64,000 bases of DNA from Arenimonas sp. (lineage in GTDB: Bacteria; Pseudomonadota; Gammaproteobacteria; Xanthomonadales; Xanthomonadaceae): the NCBI RefSeq assembly GCF_022842045.1, contig NZ_JALHQI010000001.1:78101-142100 (forward strand), written 5' to 3'. The notes under the pieces were generated by a model. The model had not been told where the DNA came from. It saw only the letters and a program-made list of their open reading frames with translations, and did not search any database. This document shows, one piece after another, positions 1,394 to 30,615 of this stretch (its first letter is position 1; every line of letters begins with the position of its first letter). The position numbers were made by a program, and so were the translations under genes.

Positions 1394-1403
1394 GGAGAAC
1401 GAG

Positions 1404-1886: not shown

Positions 1887-1895
1887 GCTGGAACG

Positions 1896-2588
1896 TCAGT
1901 CGGCGCCGGCGTATCGCCAGGCGCCGTCGGTCGTCGCCGCCGGCAGGGAGGCGATGACGGCGCCGGGCCAGGCCGCGATCGCCACGCAGCCGCCACCGTC
2001 GAGGTTCCAGTGCCAGGCCTCGGCATCGGAGGTATCCGCGGCGCGCGCAGTGACGCGCCGGGCCTGCGACGGCTGGAGGCCCTCACCGCCGCGCTTGCCA
2101 CGCGCTTCCTTCAGGGCCCAGAACAGATGGAAGACGCGCTCGCGCGCGGCGCCTTCGTCGGTCGCCGCGACCTGGTCGGCTTCCTCCTGCGAGAACAGGA
2201 AGCGCGCGATCGCCACGTAGTCGCGCGGCTTGCGCGGGCGCTCGAGGTCCAGCCCGACGGGGGCGGAAGCGATGGCCGCGGCCAGGTGTTCGCCGCTGTG
2301 GCTGAGGGACGCCCAAAGCCCGCGGCCGTCCGCATGGCGCAATCGCGGACGCGGGTCGGCATCGGTCTCGAAGCGCCAGTCGGCGGGCTCGCCGCCGTGC
2401 GCGTCGCTGGCCATCTCCCGCAGCAGCCAGTGGCCCGCAAGGTACTGGCGCCGGCGCAGCGCGGCGACGATGGCCTGCAGGCGCAGGTCCTCGCCCGCCG
2501 TCAGCCAGGCCGTGCCGGGGCCCGGCAGCCGGGCTTCGACCTCCGCGAGGGCCGCCAGCGCGATCCGGCAGTCGGCGGTGCCCGCCAC
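1896..2588 (-). CDS. 4'-phosphopantetheinyl transferase (Sfp-type) of the aryl polyene cluster
   Basis: Transfers the phosphopantetheine arm from CoA to the serine of the cluster's acyl carrier proteins. The 230-residue protein carries the magnesium-binding motif VGLDLE (D114, E116) and the second hallmark FWALKEARGKRGG (W157, K160, E161, K165). The start is a GTG; the 5' end lies one base beyond the stop of the preceding gene. It is the last gene of the 20-gene minus-strand cluster, which argues that it serves ACP1 and ACP2 there. It may also serve other carrier proteins of the cell. Confidence 0.9.
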   Translation of the reverse strand: MAGTADCRIALAALAEVEARLPGPGTAWLTAGEDLRLQAIVAALRRRQYLAGHWLLREMASDAHGGEPADWRFETDADPRPRLRHADGRGLWASLSHSGEHLAAAIASAPVGLDLERPRKPRDYVAIARFLFSQEEADQVAATDEGAARERVFHLFWALKEARGKRGGEGLQPSQARRVTARAADTSDAEAWHWNLDGGGCVAIAAWPGAVIASLPAATTDGAWRYAGAD

Positions 2589-2589
2589 G

Positions 2590-3042
2590 TCAGCGGTCGG
2601 CCACCTTGGCGTAGCTGCCCAGCAGCGCCACGCCCACCATCAGCCGGCCGGCCCCGCATTCGTACTGGGTGGCGCTGCTGAAGACCTGGCGCTTGAAGTT
2701 GCTGCGCACGCCGACGACGGCATTGGCGCCGCGGGCCTTGGCGGCCTCCTGCAGGGCCACCAGCGCGCCGAGCAGGGCCCAGTCGCAGGATTCCTGCTCC
2801 GACTTGCCCACGGCATTGGTCTTGCGGTTGGTGTTGGCGATGCCCAAGTCCTGGACCACGGCCGGCGTGGCCTGGCCTTCGAAGTAGAAGGTTACGCTGC
2901 CGTCCAGCACGCCCTGCGCCTTGCCCTGCGCGATGGCGCTGGCGATGTTGAACTGCACGCGCTTGTCGCGCGCTTCGGCCGGGGGTGCCAGCAGGGCGAG
3001 CAGGACGGCGAAGGCGGCGGCCAGGGCGGTGATGGGCTTCAT
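2590..3042 (-). CDS. Secreted small protein, YbjQ/heavy-metal-binding-like
   Basis: A 150-residue protein with a clear signal peptide (hydrophobic stretch ending AEA near residue 24). The mature part contains an ALLGALVALQEAAKARGANAVVGV segment split by turns, resembling the core of YbjQ/UPF0145-type proteins, in which small related domains assemble into rings. Homologues sit in aryl polyene clusters and are often mislabelled excinuclease subunit A. The biochemical role is unknown; the conserved place between the ketosynthase and the PPTase suggests a periplasmic part in pigment assembly or export. One Cys pair (C105-like and C127-like region) could be structural. Confidence 0.55.
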   Translation of the reverse strand: MKPITALAAAFAVLLALLAPPAEARDKRVQFNIASAIAQGKAQGVLDGSVTFYFEGQATPAVVQDLGIANTNRKTNAVGKSEQESCDWALLGALVALQEAAKARGANAVVGVRSNFKRQVFSSATQYECGAGRLMVGVALLGSYAKVADR

Positions 3043-3064
3043 GTGTCTTGTTTCCCTTGGAAGG

Positions 3065-4294
3065 TCAGGCGGACCAGCGGCGCAGCACCAGCGAGGTGTT
3101 GATGCCGCCGAAGGCGAAGTTGTTGCTCATGGCGTACTCGGCATCGATGGCGCGGCCATCGCCGGTGACGTAGTCGAGCGCGCCGCAGCGCGGGTCGACG
3201 TTCTTGAGGTTCAGCGTGGGATGGAACCAGCCCTCGCGCATCATCTCCAGGGTCACCCAGGCCTCGAGCGCGCCGCAGGCGCCCAGCGTGTGGCCGGTGT
3301 AGCTCTTGAGCGAGCTGATCGGCATGCGCTCGCCGAACACGGCGTGGGTGGCGGTGGTCTCGGCGATGTCGCCGTGGTCGGTGGCGGTGCCGTGGGCGTT
3401 GACGTAGGCGATGGCTTCCGGCGGCAGCCCGGCGTCTTCCAGCGCCAGCCGCATCGCCACCGCCATCGTGGTGGCATTGGGCTGGGTGACGTGCTGGCCG
3501 TCGCTGTTGGTGCCGAAGCCGACGATTTCGGCGTGGATGGTGGCGCCGCGCGCTTGCGCGTGCTCCAGGTCCTCCAGCACCAGGGTGCAGGCGCCCTCCC
3601 CCACCACCAGGCCGTCGCGGTCGCGATCGAAAGGCCGCGGGGTGAGCTCCGGCGTGTCGTTGAGCGTGCTGGTGGCGAACAGAGTGTCGAACACCGTGGC
3701 GTCGGTGACGTCGAGCTCCTCGCAGCCGCCGGCCAGCATCGCCACCTGCTTGCCGCTCTTGATGGCCTCGTAAGCGAAGCCAAGGCCCTGGCTGCCCGAG
3801 GTGCAGGCGCTGGAAGTGGTGATGATGCGGCCAGTGATGCCGAAGAACACACCGATGTTCACCGGCGCGGTGTGGCTCATCATCTTGATGTAGGTGGTGG
3901 CGTTGATGTACTGCGTGGTCAGCTCGGACAGCATGCGGCCGAAGTCGCCGATCGAGGACGGCGTGCCGGCCGACGAGCCGTAGGAGATGCCGACCCGGCC
4001 GGACTTGAGCACCGGGTCGCCGAGCAGGCCGGCGTCGGTCAGCGCGAGTTCGCTGGCGCGGGTGGCCAGCATCGCCACCCGGCCCATGCTGCGCAGAGTC
4101 TTGCGGTTGTAGTGGTCGGGCAGCTCGAACGGCGCACAGGGCACGCCCAGGCGCGTGTTCAGGCCCTTGTACTGGCCCCACTCGTCGAAGCGGCGCACGG
4201 CGTTGCGGCCGGAGCGAAGGTGCGCCAGCACGCTGGTCCAGTCGTGGCCGAGCGGGCTGATCGCGCCGCGGCCGGTGACGACGACACGGCGCAT
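3065..4294 (-). CDS. Beta-ketoacyl-ACP synthase II-like ketosynthase (aryl polyene elongation)
   Basis: A 409-residue FabF-like ketosynthase performing the decarboxylative condensation that lengthens the polyene chain. The thiolase-fold triad is intact: C164 in TTSSACTSGS, the first His in NAHGTATDHGD and the second in KSYTGHTLGACGA. The ATG was chosen because it overlaps the TGA of the ketoreductase gene by one base (TGATG); a longer upstream reading frame is a frame shadow of the neighbouring gene. With the second ketosynthase and the chain-length factor it fits the heterodimeric KS-CLF arrangement known for aryl polyenes. Which ketosynthase pairs with the CLF cannot be told from sequence alone. 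Confidence 0.93.
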   Translation of the reverse strand: MRRVVVTGRGAISPLGHDWTSVLAHLRSGRNAVRRFDEWGQYKGLNTRLGVPCAPFELPDHYNRKTLRSMGRVAMLATRASELALTDAGLLGDPVLKSGRVGISYGSSAGTPSSIGDFGRMLSELTTQYINATTYIKMMSHTAPVNIGVFFGITGRIITTSSACTSGSQGLGFAYEAIKSGKQVAMLAGGCEELDVTDATVFDTLFATSTLNDTPELTPRPFDRDRDGLVVGEGACTLVLEDLEHAQARGATIHAEIVGFGTNSDGQHVTQPNATTMAVAMRLALEDAGLPPEAIAYVNAHGTATDHGDIAETTATHAVFGERMPISSLKSYTGHTLGACGALEAWVTLEMMREGWFHPTLNLKNVDPRCGALDYVTGDGRAIDAEYAMSNNFAFGGINTSLVLRRWSA

Positions 4295-5022
4295 CAGACC
4301 ATGCCTCCGTTGACCGAGATCACCTGGCGGGTGACATACGAGGCCTCGTCCGACATCAGGAAAGACACCACGGCGGCCACTTCCTCCGGCCGGCCGACGC
4401 GGCGCAGCGGGATCATCTTCATCGCCTCGTCCACCACTTCGGCGGGCAGCATCTCGGTGTCCACCAGGCCGGGCGCGACGCAGTTGACCGTGATCTCGCG
4501 CTTGGCCAGCTCCAGCGCCAGCGCCTTGGTGGCGCCGATGATGCCGGCCTTGGCGGCGCTGTAGTTTGTCTGCCCGCGGTTGCCGGCGAGGCCCGACACC
4601 GAAGACAAGGTAACGATGCGGCCGGGCTTCCGGCGCCGCACCATCGGCATCACGACCGGCTGCAGCACGTTGTAAAAGCCGTCGAGGTTGGTGTGGATGA
4701 CGCTGTCCCACTCTTCGCCCGTCATCGCCGGGAAGGCGTTGTCGCGGGCGATGCCGGCGTTGCAGACCACGCCGTGGTAGGCACCGTGCGCCTCGATGTC
4801 GGCGTTGAGGGCGGCGGCGCAGGCGGCGCGGTCGGCGACGTCGAAGCAGAGCACGCGCGCGGCGCGGCCCATCGCGACGATCTCGGCGGCGACGGCTTCG
4901 GCTTCTTCGCGGCGGCTGCGGCAGTGCACGACGATGTCGAAGCCGTCGCGGGCCAGGCGCAGGGCGATGGCCTTGCCGATGCCGCGGCTGGCGCCGGTGA
5001 CCAGGAGGGTGCGTGAATTCAT
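4294..5022 (-). CDS. fabG: 3-oxoacyl-ACP reductase (FabG-like SDR) of the aryl polyene cluster
   Basis: NADPH-dependent ketoreductase reducing the beta-keto group after each condensation. The 242-residue short-chain dehydrogenase has the cofactor motif TGASRGIG at 9-16, NAG at 88-90, and the catalytic S-Y-K set with S141, Y154 and K158 (NYSAAKAG). Length and motifs match FabG. The ATG overlaps the TGA of the dehydratase gene by four bases (ATGA), implying translational coupling. It is a cluster copy; a housekeeping fabG is expected elsewhere. Confidence 0.93.
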   Translation of the reverse strand: MNSRTLLVTGASRGIGKAIALRLARDGFDIVVHCRSRREEAEAVAAEIVAMGRAARVLCFDVADRAACAAALNADIEAHGAYHGVVCNAGIARDNAFPAMTGEEWDSVIHTNLDGFYNVLQPVVMPMVRRRKPGRIVTLSSVSGLAGNRGQTNYSAAKAGIIGATKALALELAKREITVNCVAPGLVDTEMLPAEVVDEAMKMIPLRRVGRPEEVAAVVSFLMSDEASYVTRQVISVNGGMV

Positions 5023-5483
5023 GCGGAAACGGTTCCAAGGTAGGCGTCGGGATCCGGCGGCTCGAACACCGAGACGCTGGCGGTGGCCACCACGGCGTCC
5101 CCGACCAGGATGCGGCAGGCGAACAGGCCCAGGCCATTGTCGCCCATCAGTTCACAGTGCGCCTCGATGCGCAGCCGGGTACCGACCGGCAGCCGGTCCC
5201 AGTGCGCGTCGTAGCGGCGGGTGCCGAGCAGGAAGCCGGGCTTGACCGGTTCGTCGCGGGCCAGCGCGCGGCCGCCGGCCCAGGCGGCGATGGCCTGCGC
5301 CATGTACTCGATGCCGACCCAGGCCGGCACCGCCTCGCCGCCGTCCTCCAGCAGCAGGTGGTCGTCGCGCACCGTCGCCTCGGCGACCACGTCCTCGGCG
5401 TCCACCTGCAGCACGCAGTCAAGCCACAGCATGCCGCCGCGGTGCGGGACCAGGCGTTCGATGGCCTCTTCGCGCGGATCCAT
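5019..5483 (-). CDS. ApeP-like hotdog 3-hydroxyacyl-ACP dehydratase
   Basis: A single-hotdog dehydratase of 154 residues that removes water from 3-hydroxyacyl-ACP to form the double bonds of the polyene. The catalytic region LVPHRGGMLWLD (H14) and the central helix WVGIEYMAQAIAAWAG are typical of the ApeP/FabZ-like family in these clusters. The ATG at 5483 was preferred over the much longer upstream frame because it sits on the overlap with the ketosynthase stop and gives the family length. A second dehydratase domain lies at the C-terminus of the starter ligase at 15040-16722, so the cluster has two; in other aryl polyene systems two such proteins form a heterodimer. Confidence 0.88.
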   Translation of the reverse strand: MDPREEAIERLVPHRGGMLWLDCVLQVDAEDVVAEATVRDDHLLLEDGGEAVPAWVGIEYMAQAIAAWAGGRALARDEPVKPGFLLGTRRYDAHWDRLPVGTRLRIEAHCELMGDNGLGLFACRILVGDAVVATASVSVFEPPDPDAYLGTVSA

Positions 5484-6667
5484 CAGCCGGCCCCCAGCAC
5501 GAGCGCGGCGTTGCTGCCGCCGAAGGCGAAGGACTGGCTCAGCACGTGCGTCAGCGGTGCCGCGGCGCGCCGACCCGGTGCCACCAGGTCCAGCGCAGGC
5601 AGCGCCGGATCCTGCGCGCCGTCCCACCAGTGCGGCGGCAGGGCGTGGCGGGGATTGCGCGCCAGCGCCAGCCAGCAGAGGCCGGCTTCGACGGCGCCGG
5701 CGGCGCCCAGGGTGTGGCCCGTGAGCGGTTTGGTCGAACTGGCCGGCGTGTCGCCGCCGAACACGCGGTGCAGCACGGCGGCCTCCATCGCATCGTTCTG
5801 CGGCGTGGCGGTGCCGTGCAGGTTGACGTAGCCGATGTCCGACGGCGCCAGGCCGGCGCGCCGGAGCGCTTCGCGCAGCGCACGCTCGGGGCCGTGGCCC
5901 TCGGGCTCGGGGGCGGACATGTGGTGCGCATCGGAGCTCTCGCCCCACCCCGCCAGCCGCACCGCACCGGGCTCGCGCGTCATCAGGAACAGCGCCGCGC
6001 CCTCGCCGATGTTGATGCCGTTGCGGTGGCGCGAGAACGGATTGCAGCGCCCCTCCGACACCGAGCCCAGCGCGCTGAAGCCAGCGATGGTGAATTCGCA
6101 GATCGAATCCACGCCGCCGGCGATGACGGCATCCGCCAGCCCGGCGCGCAGCAGCCGCGCGCCGGAGGCCAGCGCCTTCGCGCTCGACGAGCAGGCAGTG
6201 GAAATGACGTGCGCGGGTCCGCGGGTGCCGAGCTGCTCGGCGAGGAAACGCGCCGGCATGCCCATCTCCTGCTGTGAATAATGGAACGAATCCGGCCACT
6301 GGCCGGTGCCGAGATGCTGGCGGTGCGCGCGTTCGCTCTCGCCCACGCCCGAGGTGCTGGTGCCGAGCACGATCGCGACGCGGTCCGGACCAAAACGCGC
6401 GATCACCGCGTCCACCGCGCCTCGGATCGGCGCCAGCGCCAGCGCGGCGAGCGCGTTGTTGCGTCCGTGCAGGGCGACCGGCAGCGCCGCCAGGTCGGGC
6501 AGTTCGCCCGGCACCAGGCCCAGCGCCAGCGGGCGGCCGGGCGTCACGGCCTCGGTGCTGGCCACGCCGCGGGGCGCATCGGCGGCGAACAGGTTGGCGG
6601 CGGCGCTGTCCGCATCGCGGCCGAGCGCGCAGCACAGGCCCAGTTCATTGAGGAAGACCGCACTCAT
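5483..6667 (-). CDS. Second beta-ketoacyl-ACP synthase of the aryl polyene cluster
   Basis: A 394-residue ketosynthase with an intact triad: C159 in ISTACSSSAKAL, His in NLHGTATPQND and His in KPLTGHTLGAAGA. It is more divergent than the copy at 3065-4294 and shorter at the N-terminus, which resembles the ketosynthase that accepts the aryl-ACP starter in related systems (inference). The ATG overlaps the TGA of the DUF3261 gene, and its own TGA shares bases with the dehydratase ATG, so it lies in the same translationally coupled string. Confidence 0.92.
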   Translation of the reverse strand: MSAVFLNELGLCCALGRDADSAAANLFAADAPRGVASTEAVTPGRPLALGLVPGELPDLAALPVALHGRNNALAALALAPIRGAVDAVIARFGPDRVAIVLGTSTSGVGESERAHRQHLGTGQWPDSFHYSQQEMGMPARFLAEQLGTRGPAHVISTACSSSAKALASGARLLRAGLADAVIAGGVDSICEFTIAGFSALGSVSEGRCNPFSRHRNGINIGEGAALFLMTREPGAVRLAGWGESSDAHHMSAPEPEGHGPERALREALRRAGLAPSDIGYVNLHGTATPQNDAMEAAVLHRVFGGDTPASSTKPLTGHTLGAAGAVEAGLCWLALARNPRHALPPHWWDGAQDPALPALDLVAPGRRAAAPLTHVLSQSFAFGGSNAALVLGAG

Positions 6668-7209
6668 GGCGTCACCGGCACGGAATCGATGCGCAGGCGG
6701 TAACGCAGCCGCACCTGGTCCAGCAAACGGGTGTCGGCGTCCTCGCGTTCAACCCGGGCAACGATGCCCTTCGCGTCCTTGAGCGTACGGCGCTCCCCCT
6801 GCTCGTCCAGCGTCCAGCCGGCGGGCAGCTGGGCGCGCAGCGCATCCACCGGCCAGAACACCAGCTGCAGGTCGGACAGTACGCGCGCGCCGTCCAGCGA
6901 CGCCGGCAGGCCGGGCATGCGCTTCTGCGCAAGCCGCTCGCCGTCCCAGTCCAGGCGCAGTGCCACCTGGCCCTGGGTGTGGATCACCAGCCGCACGGTG
7001 TCAGCGTCGGCCTGCACCATCGCGTCGACCGTATCGCGGCGGTCGCCATGTTCGAACGACAGGCGCTGCTGCTCGACCAGCCCGCCCAGCAGCGTCGACG
7101 GCGCCAGCGCGAACAGCGGCGCGCCGTCGGCCGGCGGGCGCGTGGCATTCGGCGTGCAGGCGGCCAGCGCCAGCGACGCGGCGGCGATGGCGGCGATCAG
7201 GCGGAGCAC
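6664..7209 (-). CDS. DUF3261 lipoprotein of the aryl polyene cluster
   Basis: A 181-residue predicted outer membrane lipoprotein. A GTG start at 7209 with a GGAG ribosome site gives a short signal with the lipobox LAAC near residue 17; the reading frame upstream of it belongs to the halogenase gene shadow. The mature part is beta-rich and matches the DUF3261 family, which is restricted mostly to aryl polyene clusters. With the LolA-like protein and the MMPL exporter it probably receives or inserts the pigment lipid at the outer membrane, analogous to LolB (inference). It overlaps the halogenase by 13 bases. Confidence 0.8.
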   Translation of the reverse strand: MLRLIAAIAAASLALAACTPNATRPPADGAPLFALAPSTLLGGLVEQQRLSFEHGDRRDTVDAMVQADADTVRLVIHTQGQVALRLDWDGERLAQKRMPGLPASLDGARVLSDLQLVFWPVDALRAQLPAGWTLDEQGERRTLKDAKGIVARVEREDADTRLLDQVRLRYRLRIDSVPVTP

Positions 7210-8438
7210 AACTGCTCCAGCACCGCGAGGCGGCGCTTGTTCTCGGCCACGTAGGGATTGGTCTTGTCCCAGGCGTAGCCGGCCAGGATCGAGCAGATCA
7301 TCTCGCGGATGTCCGGGCTGGGGTTGGGGTGGAAGATGATCTTCTGGAAGCCGCCCGCGTACCAAGCCTCGACGAAGCAGCGGAAGGTGTCGACGCCGGC
7401 GCGCAGCGGCTTGCCGTAGTCGGCCTCCCAGTCCACGACCTCGCCCGCGAACTCGCGCGCCAGGCAGGCCGAGGCCAGGCTGGCCGACTTGAAGGCTATG
7501 GTGACGCCCGAAGAGAACACCGGGTCCAGGAACTCGCCGGCGTTGCCCAGCAACGCGTAGTTCTTGCCCCACAGCGACTTCACGTTGGCCGAGTAGCCGA
7601 CGATCTGGCGCGCGGGCGTGTCCCACTCGGCATGGGCCAGCAGCGCGCTCAGGCCCGGATCCTCGCCAACGATCGCCTTCAGGCGCTCGGTCTCGGTGCC
7701 TTCGTACTGCGCCAGGAAGCCGGTTTCCGCGACCACGCCCAGCGAGCAGCGGCCGTTCGAGAACGGGATGGTCCAGTACCACACGTCCTGGTGCCCGGGA
7801 TGCACGGTGATCAGGATCTTGTTGCGGTCGAAGGCCGCCGAGCCCGGGGCAACGCGATCAGCGACGTGGGTGAAGATCGCGCCGCGGGCCGGGAAGCCCG
7901 ACGGACTCTCGAGCTGCAGCAGCCGCGGCAGGATCCGCGCGAAGCCGCTGGCGTCTAGCAGGAAGCGCGCCTGCACCCGGTAGGTCTCGCCCTCCGGGCT
8001 GCGCACGGTCACCACCGGCTGGTCGCCGTCCACGTCCACCGACAGGACTTCATGGCGGAAGCGCACGGTCGCGCCCATGCGCGCGGCCTCGTCGGCCAGC
8101 ACCTTGTCGAAGTCGGCGCGCTGCACCTGGTAGGTGGTGCCCCAGCCCTTGCTGAACTTCTGGCGGAAGTCGAACTGCGTGCGCTTGTCGCCGCAGGCGA
8201 AGGCGGCGCCGTTCTTGTACTGGAAGCCGGCCTCGACCACGGCCTTGAGCATGCCCGCGGCCTCGATGTATTCCATGCTCTGGGGCAGCAGGCTCTCGCC
8301 GATCGAGAAGCGCGGGAACTGCTCCTTCTCCAGGATCAGCACCTCGCGCCCCTGCTGGCGCAGCATGCCGGCCGCCACCGACCCCGCGGGGCCGGCGCCG
8401 ATGATCAGGATTTCGGTGGTTTCGGTGCGCATGTCCAT
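7197..8438 (-). CDS. Flavin-dependent halogenase-family oxidoreductase
   Basis: A 413-residue FAD enzyme. The dinucleotide motif IGAGPAGS lies at 13-20 and RFSIGESLLP at 43-52. Two residues that separate halogenases from plain monooxygenases are present: K75 in GFQYKNGAAF, at the place of the lysine that carries the hypohalous intermediate, and the WxWxIP motif at W220, W222, I224 and P225. Xanthomonadins are brominated aryl polyenes, so this enzyme is the prime candidate for adding bromine or chlorine to the aryl head group. The substrate is probably carrier-bound or a free aryl acid; regiochemistry and halide cannot be read from sequence. Confidence 0.85.
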   Translation of the reverse strand: MDMRTETTEILIIGAGPAGSVAAGMLRQQGREVLILEKEQFPRFSIGESLLPQSMEYIEAAGMLKAVVEAGFQYKNGAAFACGDKRTQFDFRQKFSKGWGTTYQVQRADFDKVLADEAARMGATVRFRHEVLSVDVDGDQPVVTVRSPEGETYRVQARFLLDASGFARILPRLLQLESPSGFPARGAIFTHVADRVAPGSAAFDRNKILITVHPGHQDVWYWTIPFSNGRCSLGVVAETGFLAQYEGTETERLKAIVGEDPGLSALLAHAEWDTPARQIVGYSANVKSLWGKNYALLGNAGEFLDPVFSSGVTIAFKSASLASACLAREFAGEVVDWEADYGKPLRAGVDTFRCFVEAWYAGGFQKIIFHPNPSPDIREMICSILAGYAWDKTNPYVAENKRRLAVLEQLCSA

Positions 8439-8466
8439 GTCGATGCAATCCGTGCGGAATTCGGGC

Positions 8467-11422: not shown

Positions 11423-11838
11423 GGCGCGATCCCCAGCCGCTCGAACAGCACGGGTGGCGAGGCGAAACACATCTCGCCCGTGCCCAGGTCCACGGCTACC
11501 TGGATGGTGTGCGCGCGGTGGATGGTTTCCCCGGTCACCGCATCGCGCACCAGGTAGTCCATCCGCAGCCGGTTCTCCCACTCGGTGATGGTGGCGCGCA
11601 CGAGGATGCGCTGGCCGTAGCGCACCGGACGCACGTACTTGCAGCGCATGTCCACCACCGGCCAGGCGTAGCCGGAATCGCGCATCTGCGGGTAGTCGTA
11701 GTCGATCTTCTGCAGCAGCGCGCAGCGCGCCAGCTCCAGGTAGCGCACGTAGTTGCCATGCCAGACGATGTCCATCGGGTCCAGGTCGTGGAAGCCCGGG
11801 CTCAGTTCGATCTCGAGGCTGTGCTCAGGCGTCGGCAT
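11419..11838 (-). CDS. Acyl-CoA/ACP thioesterase (4-hydroxybenzoyl-CoA thioesterase family)
   Basis: A 139-residue hotdog thioesterase. The motif DLDPMDIVWHGNYVRYLE places the catalytic Asp and the H-G-N-Y turn of the 4HBT family. In the cluster it probably frees the aryl polyene chain from the carrier protein or edits stalled intermediates. It overlaps the ammonia-lyase gene by 14 bases at its 5' end and the LolA-like gene by four at its 3' end. Confidence 0.88.
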   Translation of the reverse strand: MPTPEHSLEIELSPGFHDLDPMDIVWHGNYVRYLELARCALLQKIDYDYPQMRDSGYAWPVVDMRCKYVRPVRYGQRILVRATITEWENRLRMDYLVRDAVTGETIHRAHTIQVAVDLGTGEMCFASPPVLFERLGIAP

Positions 11839-13381
11839 ACAGGCTCCAGGCTTCGGCGCGCACGGCCGCCAGCAGCTCGCGCAGCTCGACGTCGAGGGCG
11901 CGGTCTTCTGTGACCAGCGGCAGGCGTTCGCACAGGTCGCCGTGCATCGCGGCCAGCGCCGGCGACAGCTTCAGCTCGCCCGACACCGCCTCGCGCAGCG
12001 TGATGCCCTGGCGCGCGGTGACCAGCAGCGCCACCACCACCTGCTCGGTCAGCTCGATGATGCGCAGCGCATCGCGCGCCGCGATCGTGCCCATGCTGAC
12101 CTTGTCCTGGTTGTGGCACTCGGTGGAGCGCGAGAACACCGAGGCCGGCATGGTCAGCTTCAGCGCCTCCGCGGTCCACGCCGAGGCGCTGATCTGCAGC
12201 GCCTTGAGGCCGTGGTTGAGGGCGGCGCGCTCGCCCTGCGCCGCCGACAGGTTGGCCGGCAGGCCGTGGCTGTAGCGGGCGTCCACCACCAGCGCCATCT
12301 GCCGGTCCAGCAGGTCGGCCAGGTTGGCCACGGCGTTCTTCATCGAATCCATGGCGAAGGCGATGTGGCCGCCGTAGAAGTGGCCGCCGTGCAGCACCCG
12401 CTCCTCGACCGCGTCGATGATCGGGTTGTCGTTGGCCGAGTTCAGCTCGTCCTCGATGTTGGTGCGCAGCCAGGGCAGCGCGTCCTCGAGCACGCCGACC
12501 ACGTGCGGCGCGCAGCGCAGCGAATAGCGGTCCTGCAGGCGCTGCTCGTTGCGCGGCGGGCGGTCCGAGGCCAGGTCGGCGCGCAGGCGCGCGGCGACGC
12601 GCTGCTGGCCCTTGTGCGGCTTCACCGCGAACAGGGTCTGGTCGAAATGGTGGGCGTTGCCGGCGCTGGCCAGCACGTTGAAGGCGGTGATGCGGGTGGC
12701 GAGGCGGCCCAGGTAGTCGGCGCGGCGCCAGGCCAGGCAGGCCAGCGCGGTCATCACCGCGGTGCCGTTCATGATCGCCAGGCCTTCCTTCGGGCGTAGC
12801 CGCAGCGGCTGCAGGCCGTGCAGCGCCAGCGCCTCGGCGGCGGGCATCACCCGGCCCTGGTGCCAGACCTCGCGTTCGCCGCACAGCGCGGCCGCGACGT
12901 AGGACAGCGGCGTCAGGTCGCCGCTGGCGCCAACCGAACCTTCGGCCGGGATCATCGGCAGGATGTCGTGCGCCAGCAGCGCCTCGAGCTGGCGCAGCAG
13001 GCCCAGGCTGACGCCCGACACGCCCTGCGCCAGCGACTGCAGGCGCACCAGCAGCACGGCGCGGGTTTCCTGCGGGTCGAGGAAGCGGCCCAGGCCGCAG
13101 CCGTGGTAGGCGTAGAGGTGGTGCGGCAGCTCCGCGACCAGCGAGGGCGGGATCGCCACCGTGCAGGAATCGCCGTAGCCGGTGCTGACGCCGTAGACCA
13201 CGCCGTCCTCGGCGATCAGCCGGTCGACGAAATCGGCGCCGCGGTTGATGCGCGCCTCGAAGGCCGGCTCGCGCGACAGCACCACGCGCCCCTCGGCGCG
13301 GGCGACGGCGACGACGTCCTCGATCCGCAGCGGGCGGCCGTCGACGAGGAGGGAAGGGGCGTCAGGCGGGGCGGCGGTCAT
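11825..13381 (-). CDS. MIO-type aromatic amino acid ammonia-lyase (HAL/TAL family)
   Basis: A 518-residue lyase that eliminates ammonia from an aromatic amino acid. The MIO prosthetic group forms from A152-S153-G154 inside GSVGASGDLTPLS, and the catalytic tyrosine is in the YGVSTGYG loop (Y63). The substrate-selectivity pair, Ser-His in histidine lyases and His-Leu in tyrosine lyases, reads Y92-H93 here, so specificity is open. Its place between thioesterase and acyltransferase suggests that it makes an aryl acrylate starter or precursor rather than working in histidine breakdown; no hut genes are nearby. Annotation as plain HutH would probably be misleading. Confidence 0.88.
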   Translation of the reverse strand: MTAAPPDAPSLLVDGRPLRIEDVVAVARAEGRVVLSREPAFEARINRGADFVDRLIAEDGVVYGVSTGYGDSCTVAIPPSLVAELPHHLYAYHGCGLGRFLDPQETRAVLLVRLQSLAQGVSGVSLGLLRQLEALLAHDILPMIPAEGSVGASGDLTPLSYVAAALCGEREVWHQGRVMPAAEALALHGLQPLRLRPKEGLAIMNGTAVMTALACLAWRRADYLGRLATRITAFNVLASAGNAHHFDQTLFAVKPHKGQQRVAARLRADLASDRPPRNEQRLQDRYSLRCAPHVVGVLEDALPWLRTNIEDELNSANDNPIIDAVEERVLHGGHFYGGHIAFAMDSMKNAVANLADLLDRQMALVVDARYSHGLPANLSAAQGERAALNHGLKALQISASAWTAEALKLTMPASVFSRSTECHNQDKVSMGTIAARDALRIIELTEQVVVALLVTARQGITLREAVSGELKLSPALAAMHGDLCERLPLVTEDRALDVELRELLAAVRAEAWSLYADA

Positions 13382-14300
13382 GCGGGGCGTCCCAGAAGGG
13401 GAAGAAGTTGAACCAATCGTAGGGCGATTGTCGCAGGCAGGCGGTCATCCAGGCGGCGAAGCGCGCCGCGTGTTCAGCCAGGCCCGCCTCGCGGTCGCCG
13501 CGCGGCAGCACGATGCGCTCGCTGAACGGCAGGATGTCGGCGCGGTAGCCCTCGCCGTGGTGCAGGCAGGACAACAGCCACACCGGGCAACGCAGCACCG
13601 AGGCGATCAGGTAAGGCCCGGCCGGCAGCGGCGCCCGGTGGCCCAGGAAGGCGGCCTGCACCACGCGGTCGCCGCGCACCGGCACCCGGTCGCCGGCGAT
13701 GGCGATGAATTCGCCCGCGGCCACGCGGTCGGCCAGCAGCATCGCCGTGGTCGGCGAGAAATCGGTCACCTGCATCAGCCGCACGCTGGCCTTGGGGTTG
13801 ATGCGCTCGAGGATGCGGTTGAAGCGCGGCGCGTGCGCGGTGTGCACCAGGATCGTGACGCGCAGGCCCTCGCGCCAGCTGGCCGCCATCTGCATCAGCT
13901 CCAGGCAGCCCATGTGCGCGGTGATGATCACCCCGCCCTGCCCCGCCTGCGACGAGGCCAGCATCGCTTCGTGGCCGGTGAACGCGACCCGCGCGCGTGG
14001 GTAGCGGCCGCCGATCGCCAGCATCTTGTCGAGCAGCGTTTCGGCGAACATGAAGAAATGCCGCAGGCTTTCGCGAATGCCCGGCTCGCGCGTGAACACC
14101 TGTTCGGCCGCCTGCAGCCGCGCCAGGTACTGGCGCGAGGCGCGGCGCGCCACGCCGCTGCCCAGCCAGTACACCGCCACCACGGGATACAGGCAGAGCC
14201 GGAACGGCAGTCGGCCCAGCAGCCGGTACACGCCATAAAGCAGCCAGGTGCCGCCCACGAAGGTGGTTTCGCCTAGGTCGGCCCAGTGCCGGCGGTTCAT
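13362..14300 (-). CDS. LpxL/HtrB-type lysophospholipid acyltransferase
   Basis: A 312-residue membrane-associated acyltransferase with one N-terminal hydrophobic helix (about 13-50) and the catalytic HX4E motif in TAHMGCLELM; IAGDRVPVRG is the downstream substrate-binding block. It probably acylates the lipid or sugar anchor of the aryl polyene. The ATG at 14300 was chosen over an ATG four codons upstream because it overlaps the glycosyltransferase TGA in an ATGA coupling. The 3' end overlaps the ammonia-lyase start by 20 bases. Confidence 0.85.
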   Translation of the reverse strand: MNRRHWADLGETTFVGGTWLLYGVYRLLGRLPFRLCLYPVVAVYWLGSGVARRASRQYLARLQAAEQVFTREPGIRESLRHFFMFAETLLDKMLAIGGRYPRARVAFTGHEAMLASSQAGQGGVIITAHMGCLELMQMAASWREGLRVTILVHTAHAPRFNRILERINPKASVRLMQVTDFSPTTAMLLADRVAAGEFIAIAGDRVPVRGDRVVQAAFLGHRAPLPAGPYLIASVLRCPVWLLSCLHHGEGYRADILPFSERIVLPRGDREAGLAEHAARFAAWMTACLRQSPYDWFNFFPFWDAPHDRRPA

Positions 14301-15043
14301 CGGCGGCTCCATTTGCGCGCCAGCAGGCGCGGCAGCCGCCACAGCATCCCGAAGAACAGCCGGGTATGCATGGCCGAGATCAGCACGTTGTCGCGCCAGA
14401 CCTGGAAGTGCGACACGCCGTCGGCTGGGTAGCGCACGCGGGTGTCGAGGTTGCGCACGCGCAGGCCGTCCCAGTAAAGCCGCACCAGGATTTCGGTGTC
14501 GAAATCCATGCGCCGGCCGATGCGCACGCGGTCGAGCAGCGCCAGCGTCGGCGCCAGCGGGTAGACGCGGAAGCCGCACATCGAATCGATGATCTCGAGC
14601 GACAGCGTGTTGATCCAGACCCAGACGTGGGTGGCGTAGCGGCCATATAGCCGCGCCTTCGGCACCGACGCATCGAAGATGGGCCTGCCGTTGATCACCG
14701 CCGCGGGATGGGCGCGCGCCTCGGCCAGGAATTGCGGCACGTCATCGGCGTCGTGCTGGCCGTCGGCATCGATCTGCAGGGCGTGGCTGTGGCCGCGGCG
14801 CGCCGCCTCGCGCAGGCCGGCGATGACCGCCCCGCCCTTGCCCTGGTTCACGGGCAGGCGCAGCAGCGACACGCCGGGCCGTGTCGCCAGCTGGTCGAGC
14901 ACCGCGGCGCAGGCCGGCGACGAGCCGTCGTCCACCAGCAGGCAGGGCACGCCATGGCCGCGCACCCGCGCCACCACGTCGCCGATGGCATGTTCGTGGT
15001 CGAACACCGGGATCACCACCAGCGGATCGAAGGCGCTGCTCAT
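14297..15043 (-). CDS. Family 2 glycosyltransferase of the aryl polyene cluster
   Basis: A 248-residue inverting GT-A glycosyltransferase, without transmembrane segments apart from an amphipathic C-terminus. The nucleotide-sugar site shows VVIPVFDHEHAIGD near the N-terminus, LLVDDGSS, and the metal-binding DAD triad in QIDADGQHD. Homologues in xanthomonad clusters belong to the lipid-tailoring set and probably attach a sugar to the anchor of the pigment. The ATG overlaps the TGA of the ligase gene. Confidence 0.87.
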   Translation of the reverse strand: MSSAFDPLVVIPVFDHEHAIGDVVARVRGHGVPCLLVDDGSSPACAAVLDQLATRPGVSLLRLPVNQGKGGAVIAGLREAARRGHSHALQIDADGQHDADDVPQFLAEARAHPAAVINGRPIFDASVPKARLYGRYATHVWVWINTLSLEIIDSMCGFRVYPLAPTLALLDRVRIGRRMDFDTEILVRLYWDGLRVRNLDTRVRYPADGVSHFQVWRDNVLISAMHTRLFFGMLWRLPRLLARKWSRR

Positions 15044-16722
15044 GCCGCGTCCCCGCCCGCGAAGCGCAGGCGACCGCTGGAATGCACGCCGGTGTCGGAC
15101 TGGAAACGGAAGCCGAGCGCGCCGGTGTCCGGATGCCAGTCCAGGCGCGCATCGAGCCGGGCGCCGGGGCGCACCAGGTGCATGAACTTCACTGCCTCCA
15201 TGCGCAGGAAGCGCGCCTCGATGCCGAAGGCCGTCCGGCCCAGCCGCACGGCCCAGTCGATCATCGCGACGCCAGGCAGAATGGTGGCGCCCGGGAAATG
15301 CCCTTCGAACGCGGCCAGTTCGGCCAGGACCTCCAGCCGGGCGTGCGCCGCGGTCGGCGTGCGCTCCAGCCATTCGGGCTCGGGCAGCAGCGGCCGGAAC
15401 AATGCGGCCAGGGCGCGCTCGCTGGTCTTGCCCTGGGCGTCGGCCGGCAGTGCGTCGAGGAAGCGCCAGCGGCGCGGCAGCGCGATCGCGTCGGCGTGGT
15501 CGGCCAGCCAGGCGCGAAGCGCCGCGACCAGCGCGGCCTTTCCGTCGCTTTCGAGCATCGCCCGGCCCTCGGCGCTGGGCACGGCGGCCACGGCGAGCAG
15601 GATGCGGTGGCCCGGCAGCGGCAGCAGCCGTGCCTCGTCCAGCAGCGGCGAGGCCTGCAGGCGGCGCTCGATCGCGCCCAACGGTATGCGGCGCTCCTCG
15701 AGCTTGAGGATGCGGTCCACCCGGCCGCGCAGCTCGAAACCGCCGCCGGCCGTGGCCAGGGCACGGTCGGCGGTGGCGTGCCAGTCGTCGGTGGCCAGAT
15801 GCGGCGAGCGGATCGCCAGCACGCCGTCCTGCACCCGCCACTGCACGCCCGGCAGTGGCTGCCAGGGCTTGGGCGCGCCACCGGACTGTCGCCACGCGAT
15901 GCCGCCGGTCTCGGTGCTGCCGAACACTTCGATCGCGGCCTGGCCCCAGAGCTTCCTCACCGCGTGGGCCGCGTCCGCAGGCAGCGGCCCGCCGGACGAG
16001 AAGGCCGCGCGCAGGCTGCGCGCCAGCGGGCCCCAGTCCTGGTTCTCGGGCAGCCGCTTGAGGTGCGCCGGGCTGGCCACCAGCACCAGCGGCGTGTCGC
16101 CCAGCGCGACCAGCTGTTCATTGAAACCGACCCGTCGCCGCCCGAACGGGCGGCCCGCCGACAGCGGCCACAGCAGCCGGAACAGCAGGCCATAGATGTG
16201 CTGGTGCGAGACCGTGCCCTGCACCACCGCGTCGCCCAGCGCGGCGCCGAACTGGGCCTCCAGCGCGGCCACTTCGTTGTCGAGCTGGCGCAGCGTCTTG
16301 CGGATTGCGCCCGGCTCCCCCGTGGAGCCGGAGGTGAACAGCACGACCGCGCAGTCGTCGGGATCCAGCGCGCCATGGGCCGGCGGCGGCGCGTCCAGCC
16401 CGGCGACATAGCCCCCGGGAAGTTCGCCCGCGCAGGTGGAGGCGTGGCGATCCAGTCCGGCCAGCGTCGCCGGCAGGCGATCGCCGGGCAGCCACGGGGT
16501 CTTGCCCGCCAGCCAGGCGCCGAACAGCGCGGCGGCGAACTCCAGGCCATCGTCGAGGTAGAGGGCAAGGTCGTGGCCCCCGCGCGCGGCGTGCGCGTCG
16601 CGCCATGCCCCGACGCGGGCCAGGAAGCCGGCGTTGTCCACGTCGGTCGCCACCCGGGCCTGGCCCGGCAGCGACCCGGCCAGGCGCTGGCCCAGCGGGA
16701 TGCGGGTCCGGCTAACGGCCAT
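15040..16722 (-). CDS. Aryl acid:ACP ligase fused to a FabA/FabZ-like dehydratase domain (XanA2-like)
   Basis: A 560-residue fusion. The N-terminal ANL-type ligase activates a carboxylic acid as an adenylate and loads it on ACP: LFTSGSTGEPGAIRK is the AMP-binding loop and FGSTETGGIAWR the acyl pocket motif. From about residue 455 a hotdog domain follows, with GHFPGATILPGVAMIDWA (H475), the FabA/FabZ signature. XanA2 of Xanthomonas loads 3-hydroxybenzoate as starter; this is the equivalent by content and place. The hotdog domain may pair with the free dehydratase at 5019-5483. The chosen ATG at 16722 overlaps the upstream membrane gene by 11 bases. Confidence 0.88.
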   Translation of the reverse strand: MAVSRTRIPLGQRLAGSLPGQARVATDVDNAGFLARVGAWRDAHAARGGHDLALYLDDGLEFAAALFGAWLAGKTPWLPGDRLPATLAGLDRHASTCAGELPGGYVAGLDAPPPAHGALDPDDCAVVLFTSGSTGEPGAIRKTLRQLDNEVAALEAQFGAALGDAVVQGTVSHQHIYGLLFRLLWPLSAGRPFGRRRVGFNEQLVALGDTPLVLVASPAHLKRLPENQDWGPLARSLRAAFSSGGPLPADAAHAVRKLWGQAAIEVFGSTETGGIAWRQSGGAPKPWQPLPGVQWRVQDGVLAIRSPHLATDDWHATADRALATAGGGFELRGRVDRILKLEERRIPLGAIERRLQASPLLDEARLLPLPGHRILLAVAAVPSAEGRAMLESDGKAALVAALRAWLADHADAIALPRRWRFLDALPADAQGKTSERALAALFRPLLPEPEWLERTPTAAHARLEVLAELAAFEGHFPGATILPGVAMIDWAVRLGRTAFGIEARFLRMEAVKFMHLVRPGARLDARLDWHPDTGALGFRFQSDTGVHSSGRLRFAGGDAA

Positions 16723-17248
16723 GGCGCGGCCGGAACAGGAAACGCTCGCCCAGGAACATGGCGGCGATGAGGAGGTAGGCGATGAGCCCGTTGTAAACCG
16801 CCCACGCCGCATCGCTGGCGCGCAGCGCGGTGTAGAGCGCGATGCCGCCGTTGAGGACGAAGAACACGCACCAGGCCCCGGTCACCTTGCGCAGGTAGGG
16901 AATCGATTCCGGCGGAAGGTCCGGATGCTGCAGTCGCGCTAGCCGTTCGATCACCGTGGGCGGGCGCCGCAGGCTGGTCGCAAATACGACCAGGAAAGCC
17001 GCGTTCACCAGCACCGGGTAGAGCTTGAGCGGCAGGCCGTCGTTGCTGAGCATGCTGGCCAGCACCAGGCCGCCGGCGCAGGCTGCCGCGGCCAGCCACA
17101 CCGCCTCGCGCGAGACCGCGGCGCGCAGCAGCGCCATTGCCAACAAGAGGAGCGCCAGCCAGCGCGGCTCGAAATGGGCCAGGCCCAGCCAGATCGCCAG
17201 CGGGTACAGCAGGGTCGCCAGCCAGGCCAGCGCCTTCGCGGCGCGCAT
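16712..17248 (-). CDS. COG4648-type integral membrane protein
   Basis: A 178-residue protein with about five or six hydrophobic segments (near residues 8-25, 30-46, 50-66, 76-92, 123-143 and 150-170). It belongs to the COG4648 group, found almost only in aryl polyene clusters next to the ACP and ligase genes. Function is unknown; an anchoring or transfer role at the inner membrane is a guess. The gene starts two bases after the ACP1 stop and overlaps the ligase start. Confidence 0.75.
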   Translation of the reverse strand: MRAAKALAWLATLLYPLAIWLGLAHFEPRWLALLLLAMALLRAAVSREAVWLAAAACAGGLVLASMLSNDGLPLKLYPVLVNAAFLVVFATSLRRPPTVIERLARLQHPDLPPESIPYLRKVTGAWCVFFVLNGGIALYTALRASDAAWAVYNGLIAYLLIAAMFLGERFLFRPRHGR

Positions 17249-17250
17249 GT

Positions 17251-17532
17251 TCAGGCGCCCGCGGCGGATTCGTCGCTGCCGTGCATCATGGCGTGCAGCG
17301 CGTCCACCACGTCCTGCACGCTGCGCACCGACTTGAAGGCCTCCGGCTTGAGGTTGCCGCCCAGCAGCGGCTTGAGCTGCACGATCAGGTCGACGGCATC
17401 GATGCTGTCGATGTCGAGGTCTTCGCCCAGCTTCGAATCGAGCCTCACCTTTTCCGGGTCGATGCCGAAGGTGTCGTGGAGGATGGCGACGATGCGCTGG
17501 AAAAGCTGGTCCTTGGTCATGGTCTTGCTCAT
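17251..17532 (-). CDS. Acyl carrier protein 1 of the aryl polyene cluster
   Basis: A 93-residue carrier protein. S43 in GEDLDIDSIDAVDL is the phosphopantetheine attachment site; the surrounding helices and acidic helix II are typical of type II ACPs. The N-terminal MSKTMT offers a second ATG three codons in. It follows ACP2 by 19 bp. XanC of Xanthomonas is the functional counterpart. One of the two ACPs probably carries the aryl starter and the other the extender chain, but sequence does not say which. Confidence 0.92.
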   Translation of the reverse strand: MSKTMTKDQLFQRIVAILHDTFGIDPEKVRLDSKLGEDLDIDSIDAVDLIVQLKPLLGGNLKPEAFKSVRSVQDVVDALHAMMHGSDESAAGA

Positions 17533-17551
17533 GCGGTGCGGCGGCTTGGCC

Positions 17552-17812
17552 TTACTGCTTGCGGTTGGCCGCCACGAAGGCGCTGAGCGCGCGGACGGAG
17601 GCGAAATGCTGGCGGGTTTCCTCGGAGTCGGCGGCGAGCGTCACGCCGTAGCGCTTCTGCAGGGCCAGGCCGAGTTCCAGGGCGTCGATGGAGTCCAGGC
17701 CCAGGCCCTCGTTGAACAGCGGGGCCTCGGCGTCGATGTCGTCGGCGGCGATGTCCTCCAGCGACATCGTGGTGATGATCAGTTCCTTGATTTCAGCTTC
17801 CAGCGCCAGCAC
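17552..17812 (-). CDS. Acyl carrier protein 2 of the aryl polyene cluster
   Basis: An 86-residue carrier protein with S41 in NEGLGLDSIDALELG as the phosphopantetheine site. It differs clearly from ACP1, so it is a functional partner rather than a recent duplicate. The start is a GTG at 17812 that lies 20 bases inside the acyltransferase gene; TAA stop at 17552. Confidence 0.9.
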   Translation of the reverse strand: MLALEAEIKELIITTMSLEDIAADDIDAEAPLFNEGLGLDSIDALELGLALQKRYGVTLAADSEETRQHFASVRALSAFVAANRKQ

Positions 17813-18575
17813 GGTGCAGCTCCGTCTTGAAGGTCGTTTCCAGGTGTTCGGTCAGCCGGCGGGCCGCCAGGGCCTCGGCGCTTCCGGCCAGGAACGGGGC
17901 CACCGGGATGTCCGGCAGGACCTCTATTCTCATGTGAAACCGGCGTGACGGGACACGATACCATTTCTCACCCTTTCCCAGCGTCGGCGGGGTGCACCGG
18001 ATGGTGACCGGAGTCACGTCCAGCGCGCCCCGGATGGCGATGTTCGCGGCCCCGCGCTGCAGGGGTCCGAGTACCTCGCCGCGCGGCGTGCGGGTGCCTT
18101 CGGGAAAGATCACCAGGTTCTTGCCCGACCGCACAGAATCGATGCAGTCCTGGATCAGCCCGGCGCCGTTGTCGTTGAAGATGTAGCCCGCCGCCCGCAG
18201 TGGCCCGCGCGTGAAAGGATTGGTGGCAAGGCGCGATTTCACCACGCAGTCGGCCTCCTCGATCATGCCGATCAGGCAGACCACGTCGATCAGGGTCGGA
18301 TGGTTGGCCAGCACCAGCAGGCCCGGGCGGCGCAGGCGCTCGGCGCCGTGGATTTCCCAGCTCATCACCCCCAGTCGCCGCATCAGCCAGACATGGCCGG
18401 CGAAACTGGCCTGCACCAGTCGCCGCGCCAGCCGCCCGAGCCGCGCCCGGTCACGCACGCCCAGGCGCAGCAGCGGGAACACCAGCAGGCCCAGCAGCAC
18501 CCCGCCCAGGCCGAAGGCCGCGAACGACAGCGCGGTGCCGAAGACCCGCCAGGCGTGGCCAAGCCTTTCAAGCAT
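17793..18575 (-). CDS. PlsC-like 1-acyl-glycerol-phosphate acyltransferase
   Basis: A 260-residue acyltransferase with an N-terminal hydrophobic helix (about 13-40), the catalytic HX4D motif in NHPTLIDVV and the glycerophosphate-binding FPEGTRT motif. Cluster copies of this family are thought to transfer the finished aryl polyene or a fatty acid onto a glycerol-type lipid (the xanthomonadin anchor); this is inference from place. The ATG at 18575 lies eight bases inside the chain-length factor gene. A longer in-frame extension upstream is a shadow of that gene. Confidence 0.86.
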   Translation of the reverse strand: MLERLGHAWRVFGTALSFAAFGLGGVLLGLLVFPLLRLGVRDRARLGRLARRLVQASFAGHVWLMRRLGVMSWEIHGAERLRRPGLLVLANHPTLIDVVCLIGMIEEADCVVKSRLATNPFTRGPLRAAGYIFNDNGAGLIQDCIDSVRSGKNLVIFPEGTRTPRGEVLGPLQRGAANIAIRGALDVTPVTIRCTPPTLGKGEKWYRVPSRRFHMRIEVLPDIPVAPFLAGSAEALAARRLTEHLETTFKTELHRAGAGS

Positions 18576-19293
18576 GCCGGTGCCAGCAGCGGGTGCCAGA
18601 GGGCGAGACCAGGCGACCCTTGCCTGCCAGCGCGAAGCGCAGCACGTCCAGGCCGTGCGGCAGCGGTGCGGGCGGCGCCGGCGGGCCCGCATGGGCCAGC
18701 AGTGAAAACCGCGGCGCGTCGGCCCGCGGCGCGGCGATCCGCCAGGCCCAGGCCCAGGCGGCTTCCGGCTCGTCGCGGTATTCGGCATAGGGCTCGGGCG
18801 TGGGGCCGTCGTACAGCGCCACCAACACCTCCGGCGCACCGTCGGCCAGCAGTGCCAGCGCCTCGGTCACGGCCGCTTCCGGCGATTCCACGCCGCCCGA
18901 GACCGCCAGGTAGTTGTCGGTCAGCCCGCGCGTGATCGAGTACTGGGCCGCGATGGCGTTGTGCGTCGACAGTCCGAAATGCGTCGGCGACAGCGGCTCG
19001 CCGCGGGCCAGCCCGGCCAGCATTTCATAGGTGCGGGCGACGTCGCCATGGCGGGAAGCGAACACCATCGGCAGTCCCGGCGAGGCCTCGGGCTGGACGC
19101 GCCAGGCTACCTGCAGCGCCATGCGGCCGAGCGGTTCGAGCCGGCGTCGCTGCATGGCGGGCATCTCGGCCAGCGCCGGGGTGGCAGAGCCGGCCGGCAG
19201 CGTGGGCGCCCGGGCCCAGGCCTGCCAGTCCTCGGCGGTTTCCAGGCCAGCCGCGAAGGCCGACCAGCCGAGCAGGCTGAATTGTCCGTCCAA
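18568..19293 (-). CDS. Beta-ketoacyl synthase chain-length factor (truncated KS-like)
   Basis: A 241-residue protein of the ketoacyl-synt_2 family: a half-size ketosynthase homologue without an active-site cysteine or the catalytic histidine loops. It should dimerise with a cluster ketosynthase and set polyene length. The segment STHNAIAAQYSITRGLTDNY aligns with the region around the lost nucleophile. The start is a TTG at 19293, preceded by GGAGG about ten bases upstream. It is the first gene of the 20-gene cluster; only 47 bp separate it from the terminator of the tRNA operon. Confidence 0.85.
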   Translation of the reverse strand: MDGQFSLLGWSAFAAGLETAEDWQAWARAPTLPAGSATPALAEMPAMQRRRLEPLGRMALQVAWRVQPEASPGLPMVFASRHGDVARTYEMLAGLARGEPLSPTHFGLSTHNAIAAQYSITRGLTDNYLAVSGGVESPEAAVTEALALLADGAPEVLVALYDGPTPEPYAEYRDEPEAAWAWAWRIAAPRADAPRFSLLAHAGPPAPPAPLPHGLDVLRFALAGKGRLVSPSGTRCWHRHA

Positions 19294-19385: not shown

Positions 19386-19461
19386 TGGCGTCCCCACGGG
19401 GATTCGAACCCCGGTCGCTACCGTGAAAGGGTAATGTCCTAGGCCTCTAGACGATGGGGAC
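19386..19461 (-). tRNA. tRNA-Glu (anticodon TTC)
   Basis: A 76-base tRNA on the minus strand. The acceptor stem GTCCCCA pairs with TGGGGAC, the discriminator is G and CCA is encoded. The anticodon loop reads CTTTCAC with anticodon TTC. It is the second gene of the Ala-Glu operon. Confidence 0.97.
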
Positions 19462-19494
19462 TTGGAACTTTTTTTGAAGCGTGGCGCGAATAAG

Positions 19495-19570
<76 letters not shown>

Positions 19571-24405: not shown

Positions 24406-24500
24406 GCCGGGGGGCGGAATTTTCGCTGTGGCCGCGGCCCACCGGGCTGGGCATACTCGTGCGAACGGGGCCCGAAACCCCGACACGGGGCGACGGAGGC

Positions 24501-30613: not shown

Positions 30614-30615
30614 GG

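Follow-up and report, generated by a model that had tools for sequence, protein, structure and literature searches.

Aryl polyene (APE) pigment clusters are widespread in Gram-negative bacteria, and the origin of the ring at the head of the polyene governs how feeding experiments and mass spectra are to be interpreted. Where this ring comes from is the question raised by a 20-gene block at 1896-19293, on the minus strand of a 64,000-nucleotide stretch of Arenimonas sp. DNA (the window; G000:C1:78101-142100, from a 3.08-Mb genome of 126 contigs), in which APE genes are accompanied by an aromatic amino acid ammonia-lyase and a flavin-dependent halogenase. The best explanation of the locus, and one that we consider probable, is a lyase-bearing APE cluster that would use tyrosine-derived p-coumarate as starter and make a halogenated 4-hydroxyphenyl polyene.

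The lyase and its relatives

One means of judging the substrate of such a lyase is by its second selectivity motif, where Glu marks a histidine ammonia-lyase (HAL) and Gln marks a tyrosine or phenylalanine ammonia-lyase (TAL or PAL), the last two not being separable by this motif (PMC3992019, Fig. S1 legend). For comparison, a species-genome scan provided the best 80 of at least 578 stretches encoding a relative of the window lyase, and locus counts from this set therefore concern near kin. Motif 2 reads STECHNQDKVSMG, with Gln, in all 81 lyases (the window and the 80 loci), and Glu occupies this position in every one of 12 HutH-type lyases, which were taken from 12 genomes and include a second lyase of the host. 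When ten of these 12 were run on NCBIfam, all passed the HAL cut-off of NF006871 and nine passed that of TIGR01225; the window lyase falls below both (413.9 of 524 and 408.4 of 539 bits, respectively). Motif 1 is Tyr-His in 77 of the 81 lyases, Phe-His in three and a gap in one, and Ser-His or Thr-His in the HutH-type enzymes, while the ASG triplet that makes the methylideneimidazolone (MIO) group occurs in 80 of the 81. In a tree of 93 rows built by a quick method, the 12 HutH-type lyases stand apart as a group of their own (Shimodaira-Hasegawa-like approximate likelihood ratio test, SH-aLRT, 100), and the nearest named relatives are Lysobacteraceae.

Another means is the company that lyases of the same clade keep outside APE clusters. 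Photoactive yellow protein (PYP) carries, and needs, p-coumarate. In a Methylibium metagenome-assembled genome (MAG; locus L022), a clade lyase 73% identical to that of the window is followed first by PYP (TIGR02373, 182.6 bits against a cut-off of 143; PDB PYP match, E 3e-55) and then by a 4-coumarate-CoA ligase (TIGR02372, 362.7 bits against a cut-off of 334.7). This lyase lies inside the APE-lyase clade, beside the APE lyases of Paucibacter (SH-aLRT 98), even though the product of the PYP operon goes to a photoreceptor and not to a polyketide. Among 399 genomes, five PYPs exceeded the cut-off. Three of these, one being that of L022, adjoin a clade lyase, and the two genomes concerned other than L022 yielded no further MIO lyase. 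None of 15 weaker PYP-like loci below the cut-off had a clade lyase in the fetched stretches, some of which end at contig ends. On the strength of its motifs and its clade, the window lyase is quite likely to have TAL activity. Among the open-licence papers listed by literature searches, no title or displayed abstract names this lyase lineage as a TAL in APE clusters.

Structural modeling of the lyase gave a mean pLDDT (predicted local distance difference test) of 35.9 from the single sequence and 83.8 from a 20-row alignment. The latter model is sound overall but falls below 50 at residues 64-75, 151-154, 279-283 and 419-421, stretches that contain active-site loops or lie at their edges, and so offers no basis for an argument about the pocket.

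Two further lyases deserve mention. The second MIO lyase of the host (L001, on G000:C58; open reading frame (ORF) 1192-3090) is an unusually long HutH-type protein (632 aa) with an insertion and the HAL-type Glu; it adjoins a histidyl-tRNA-synthetase-like ORF, and matches with frames of comparable length seem to be frequent across the family. In Xanthomonas bonasiae (L050:7412-17486), genes for a thioesterase, an AMP-ligase, a clade lyase, an acyl carrier protein (ACP) and a type I polyketide synthase (PKS) lie together, and the position of the lyase between AMP-ligase and ACP makes it another lyase beside a ligase and a carrier.

Supply of the ring: tyrosine or chorismate

The first-pass annotation had proposed an aromatic amino acid as the source of the starter, partly on the ground that no chorismatase was present. 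The latter part proved wrong for the genome at large, as a search found an FkbO/Hyg5-type chorismatase of 317 aa on contig G000:C61 (L003:1360-2313), the cluster itself being on C1. It is the sole PF21168 match in the genome (109 bits, cut-off 27), its nearest solved chain is 5ag3, and it scores 182.8 of 325 bits on TIGR04444. UbiC was also searched for in the host genome and was not found.

The distribution of these enzymes is informative. In 50 genomes chosen from the 80 related loci, chorismatase was found in 15 and UbiC in 20, with both in none and neither in 15 (Fisher p 8e-5). The Rv2949c-type family, searched for in those 15 and in the host, gave 0 of 16. Fourteen of the 15 genomes devoid of all three chorismate-to-hydroxybenzoate families hold the cluster, among them six myxobacteria. 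In the family as a whole, 113 of 119 genomes of 90% completeness or more (host included) have chorismatase, and 20 have a clade lyase at 67% identity or above, interrupted in one of the 20 by an in-frame stop. Mutual exclusion of lyase and chorismatase did not show when tested, as chorismatase is present in 17 of the 20 lyase genomes versus 96 of the 99 others (Fisher p 0.059), and the three lyase genomes lacking it all belong to one genus. Judging from its distribution relative to UbiC and across the family, chorismatase appears to behave as a UbiC substitute, and the unlinked enzyme of the host would then mainly feed ubiquinone; XanB2 makes 3- and 4-hydroxybenzoate for both xanthomonadin and ubiquinone, according to a title cited in PMC3949708. 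A chorismatase, whether found or missing, would by itself be a misleading guide to the origin of the ring. The proposal of an amino acid starter has fared better, being supported by the TAL/PAL-type Gln, by the occurrence of the clade in PYP operons and by the 14 relatives devoid of the three families; on these sequence grounds, p-coumarate is probably the pigment starter.

In five Stenotrophomonas genomes (G003, G004, G005, G008 and G015; loci L007, L008, L009, L012 and L021), searches for chorismatase, UbiC and the Rv2949c-type family gave no match, and p-coumarate from the pigment lyase would be one candidate source of the ubiquinone ring in these strains.

Several observations weigh against a p-coumarate starter. 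The best NCBIfam model of the window lyase is a HAL model, albeit below its cut-off, and no TAL cut-off in NCBIfam is reached (FlxA, 319.7 of 700 bits; BagA/FevW, 407.9 of 1000). In one of the 81 lyases, DSG replaces the ASG from which the MIO group is made, and motif 1 is Tyr-His instead of the His-Leu pair of the classical selectivity switch. FlxA, a proven TAL, combines a HAL-like motif 1 with a TAL-like motif 2 (PMC3992019). Two of the five PYP loci are without a nearby clade lyase; the sole MIO lyase of one of these genomes is distant (35%), and the other genome has none. Two of the 14 genomes without chorismatase and UbiC are MAGs and possibly incomplete. The window ligase has a relative in E. 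coli ApeH, and both the window and the E. coli ligases score best on TIGR02372, far below its cut-off in each case (88.5 and 77.1 of 334.7 bits); because the E. coli ligase shares this best model, NCBIfam leaves the ligase substrate undistinguished. Finally, a chorismatase gene lies divergently beside the cluster in five of the 80 loci, all Stenotrophomonas, and six of the 17 family genomes having both genes (G055, G088, G100, G120, G121 and G144) encode chorismatase and lyase on one contig, not more than 25 kb apart, a linkage that suggests a pigment role for chorismatase in those genomes.

It is conceivable, then, that the unlinked chorismatase of the host provides 4- or 3-hydroxybenzoate, that the ligase loads this acid as in E. 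coli or Xanthomonas, and that the lyase has only a side role. The chorismatase gene in the host genome and the linkage just described are in line with such a starter, as is the assignment of 4-hydroxybenzoate to E. coli ApeH (PMC8253772). Nevertheless, the cluster occurs in the 14 genomes lacking all three families, chorismatase is equally common in genomes with and without the lyase, and it is not found close to the cluster in the host and in most of the 17 genomes. We therefore regard a hydroxybenzoate starter as rather unlikely, and return to p-coumarate for the pathway proposed below.

Cluster content and comparison with known clusters

Coding-frame analysis, codon-position GC and Pfam identify 20 genes in the block, which runs from the start of the chain-length-factor (CLF)-like ketosynthase (KS) at 19293 to the stop of the phosphopantetheinyl transferase (PPTase) at 1896. 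They are listed in collinear order, with the gene names apeG to apeR taken from the table in PMC8253772:

18568-19293, minus: KS/CLF-like protein, ApeC equivalent, first in collinear order (PF13723, Ketoacyl-synt_2, 200.8 bits)
17793-18575, minus: acyltransferase, ApeD equivalent by position (PF01553, 64.5 bits)
17552-17812, minus: acyl carrier protein 1 (PF00550, 36.8 bits)
17251-17532, minus: acyl carrier protein 2 (PF00550, 36.7 bits)
16712-17248, minus: membrane protein at the ApeG (COG4648) position, named by position only, against the table in PMC8253772; no match in Pfam and NCBIfam profile searches
15040-16722, minus: starter AMP-ligase with ApeI-type dehydratase domain (ApeH+ApeI) in one ORF (PF00501, 74.8 bits; PF22818, 41.2 bits); start ATG at 16722 or 16812
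14297-15043, minus: family 2 glycosyltransferase, half of ApeJ (PF00535, 60.2 bits)
13362-14300, minus: lipid A-type acyltransferase, other half of ApeJ (PF03279, 27.9 bits)
11825-13381, minus: MIO aromatic amino acid ammonia-lyase, predicted TAL (PF00221, Lyase_aromatic, 534 bits; Gln motif; Tyr-His pair; clade in PYP operons)
11419-11838, minus: 4HBT thioesterase, ApeK equivalent (PF13279, 50.9 bits)
10766-11422, minus: LolA-like carrier, ApeL equivalent (PF19574, 34.6 bits)
8467-10773, minus: MMPL/RND exporter, ApeM equivalent (PF03176, 26 bits)
7197-8438, minus: flavin-dependent halogenase (PF04820, Trp_halogenase, 92.4 bits, cut-off 21)
6664-7209, minus: DUF3261 protein, ApeN equivalent (PF11659, 104.5 bits)
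5483-6667, minus: ketosynthase, ApeO equivalent (PF02801/PF00109)
5019-5483, minus: ApeP-type dehydratase (PF22817, 69 bits)
4294-5022, minus: ketoreductase (KR), ApeQ equivalent (PF13561, 194.6 bits)
3065-4294, minus: ketosynthase, ApeR equivalent (NF006587, 708.9 bits, cut-off 470)
2590-3042, minus: small exported-looking protein, such as is found at the same end of many related clusters; no match in Pfam and NCBIfam profile searches
1896-2588, minus: 4'-phosphopantetheinyl transferase (PF01648, 34.3 bits)

The complete minus-strand block described in the first-pass annotation is thus confirmed in its functions and limits, and its two dehydratase functions are both present, the second being a domain fused to the ligase and not a separate gene. 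By gene content and order, the cluster is a member of the APE_Ec/APE_Vf family, and its product would be a yellow pigment of the membrane, of a type that many bacteria are known to have.

What the genomes show directly is the set and order of the genes, their motifs and their co-occurrence; each catalytic step of the pathway that follows is inferred. The MIO lyase would deaminate L-tyrosine to p-coumarate, which the ligase domain would load onto an ACP, and the KS/CLF, KS, KR and the ApeP and ApeI dehydratases would lengthen it into a 4-hydroxyphenyl polyene acid. The halogenase would add Cl or Br to the phenol ring, probably at the position adjacent to the hydroxyl, the acyltransferases and glycosyltransferase would attach the polyene to a lipid and, by homology with apeL, apeM and apeN, the LolA-like, MMPL and DUF3261 proteins would carry the product to the outer membrane.

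The E. coli cluster APE_Ec (apeA-R) has the identical genes and order from the CLF through the last KS. In the one E. coli cluster compared, a methyltransferase is followed by the CLF, an acyltransferase, two ACPs, a hypothetical protein, the ligase, ApeI, a glycosyltransferase and a thioesterase, and then by LolA, MMPL, DUF3261, KS, ApeP, KR and KS. To this order the window adds the lyase, the halogenase, the PPTase gene and the small ORF; the E. coli cluster lacks the first three and has the upstream methyltransferase. In E. coli, moreover, the ligase and ApeI are separate genes instead of a fusion, and no separate lipid A-type acyltransferase gene follows the glycosyltransferase, as one does in the window. 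At the DNA level, a search with window positions 3065-7000 matched 809 of the 5426 complete E. coli genomes. The likeness to APE_Vf of Aliivibrio fischeri (MIBiG BGC0000837) is one of description, an ammonia-lyase and an acyltransferase being characteristic of that cluster (PMC8719888); the window has the ammonia-lyase inside the cluster by which the APE_Vf subtype is recognized (PMC8719888, PMC5851621).

A precedent for a coumarate starter comes from the flexirubin cluster of Chitinophaga pinensis, where the TAL FlxA and a coumarate ligase start a polyene that ends as a 4-hydroxyphenyl product, its ring varying in methylation and chlorination (PMC3992019). The window lyase falls outside the FlxA model, NF053541 (319.7 of 700 bits). 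Of the flexirubin dialkylresorcinol genes, darB gave four weak matches in the host genome, the best at 32.8 of 550 bits and none over the cut-off, and darA was not searched for; since no darB exceeds the cut-off, the cluster is not a flexirubin cluster. By analogy, it is best read as working like flexirubin initiation on an APE chassis. The aryl-acrylate head predicted in the first-pass annotation retains support as to its amino acid origin, but it would not be new as a head group, as flexirubins also start from coumarate (PMC3992019).

The xanthomonadin clusters of Xanthomonas and Lysobacter are likewise type II PKS aryl polyene clusters, and a special case of the hydroxybenzoate starter would be a brominated xanthomonadin whose head is 3-hydroxybenzoate, like that of Xanthomonas. 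The window has a halogenase, as do xanthomonadin clusters, including that of Xanthomonas (PMC3691225), and the nearest named relatives are Lysobacteraceae. This product is nonetheless improbable, as the window follows the E. coli gene order, its chorismatase lies outside the cluster and not inside, where XanB2 is found in Xanthomonas and Lysobacter enzymogenes, and the available parts of the two reports name no ammonia-lyase for those clusters (PMC3691225, PMC3838355). Although this comparison is again by description, the view that the cluster differs from the classical xanthomonadin one is supported by the lack of an in-cluster chorismatase and the presence of the lyase.

Ring tailoring and the spread of the lineage

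The WxWxIP motif and conserved Lys, which we take to be the motifs of flavin-dependent halogenases, occur in all 52 halogenases examined (the window and 51 loci). The nearest solved chain to the window enzyme is 3nix, at 388 bits, with the next at 148 bits. The usual substrate of such halogenases is a phenol or a similarly activated ring, and phenol halogenases in general place the halogen next to the hydroxyl. Most likely, the enzyme adds Cl or Br to the ring of the pigment. A phenylalanine starter, with the lyase acting as a PAL and the ring either an unsubstituted phenyl or hydroxylated later, would suit the inability of motif 2 to separate TAL from PAL, but it is very improbable given the substrate habit of the halogenase, the p-coumarate required by the PYP encoded beside clade members, and the second residue of motif 1, a His (H93) in every row of the 20-row alignment.

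An ApeB-like methyltransferase is encoded in 15 of 19 loci without the halogenase versus one of 51 with it (p 8e-11, raw table). After correction for phylogeny, four pairs ran against co-occurrence, none ran with it and four showed no difference (p 0.125), a weak test because relatedness leaves only four informative pairs, all in the expected direction. The seven methyltransferases compared are 40-48% identical to the E. coli one. Across all 80 loci, the methyltransferase occupies the halogenase slot in eight cases, the interval between ligase and glycosyltransferase in eight and an upstream position in one.

The related loci are widely spread, being found in Stenotrophomonas, Pseudoxanthomonas, many Burkholderiales, Iodobacter, Aestuariicella, six myxobacteria and others. 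In 69 of them, 14 or more of the 18 ordered window genes are present, and all but one of these 69 (68) are collinear with the window. Among the 70 loci holding both MMPL and the following KS, the halogenase is present in 51 and absent in 19. Ammonia-lyase is counted among the characteristic APE genes and used as a marker (PMC8719888), and ammonia-lyase genes are among those common with the Vibrio fischeri cluster (PMC5851621). Together, these counts and reports make lyase plus halogenase the usual state among near kin, and the notion of a special combination finds no support, the lyase being a stock APE gene.

There is perhaps an even chance that the lyase-bearing APE clusters constitute one cross-phylum lineage, spanning Lysobacteraceae, Burkholderiales, myxobacteria and others, in which a non-FlxA TAL provides a tyrosine-derived head independently of chorismate, and in which halogenation and methylation of the ring are interchanged as tailoring modules. 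If so, halogenated 4-hydroxyphenyl polyenes would be the product of most members, as a class between the flexirubins and the E. coli-type aryl polyenes. The lyase motif, the PYP operons and the alternation of halogenase and methyltransferase all yield predictions.

Closer to the host, the lyase of Arenimonas daejeonensis (L074:1-21520) shares 87% identity with the window lyase, which marks the host as Arenimonas-like. In that locus several cluster genes, the lyase included, are each matched by two fragments, a pattern suggestive of frameshifts or sequencing errors. A tRNA-Glu/tRNA-Ala pair lies directly upstream of the cluster (window 19386-19570); the same pair occurs at the same place in A. 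daejeonensis (L074) and in the opposite orientation in five Pseudoxanthomonas loci, and it is absent in four further scanned loci. Beyond it, two adjoining genes on opposite strands (window 24459-27608 and 27668-30958) encode two-component-regulator-propeller proteins with a GGDEF domain.

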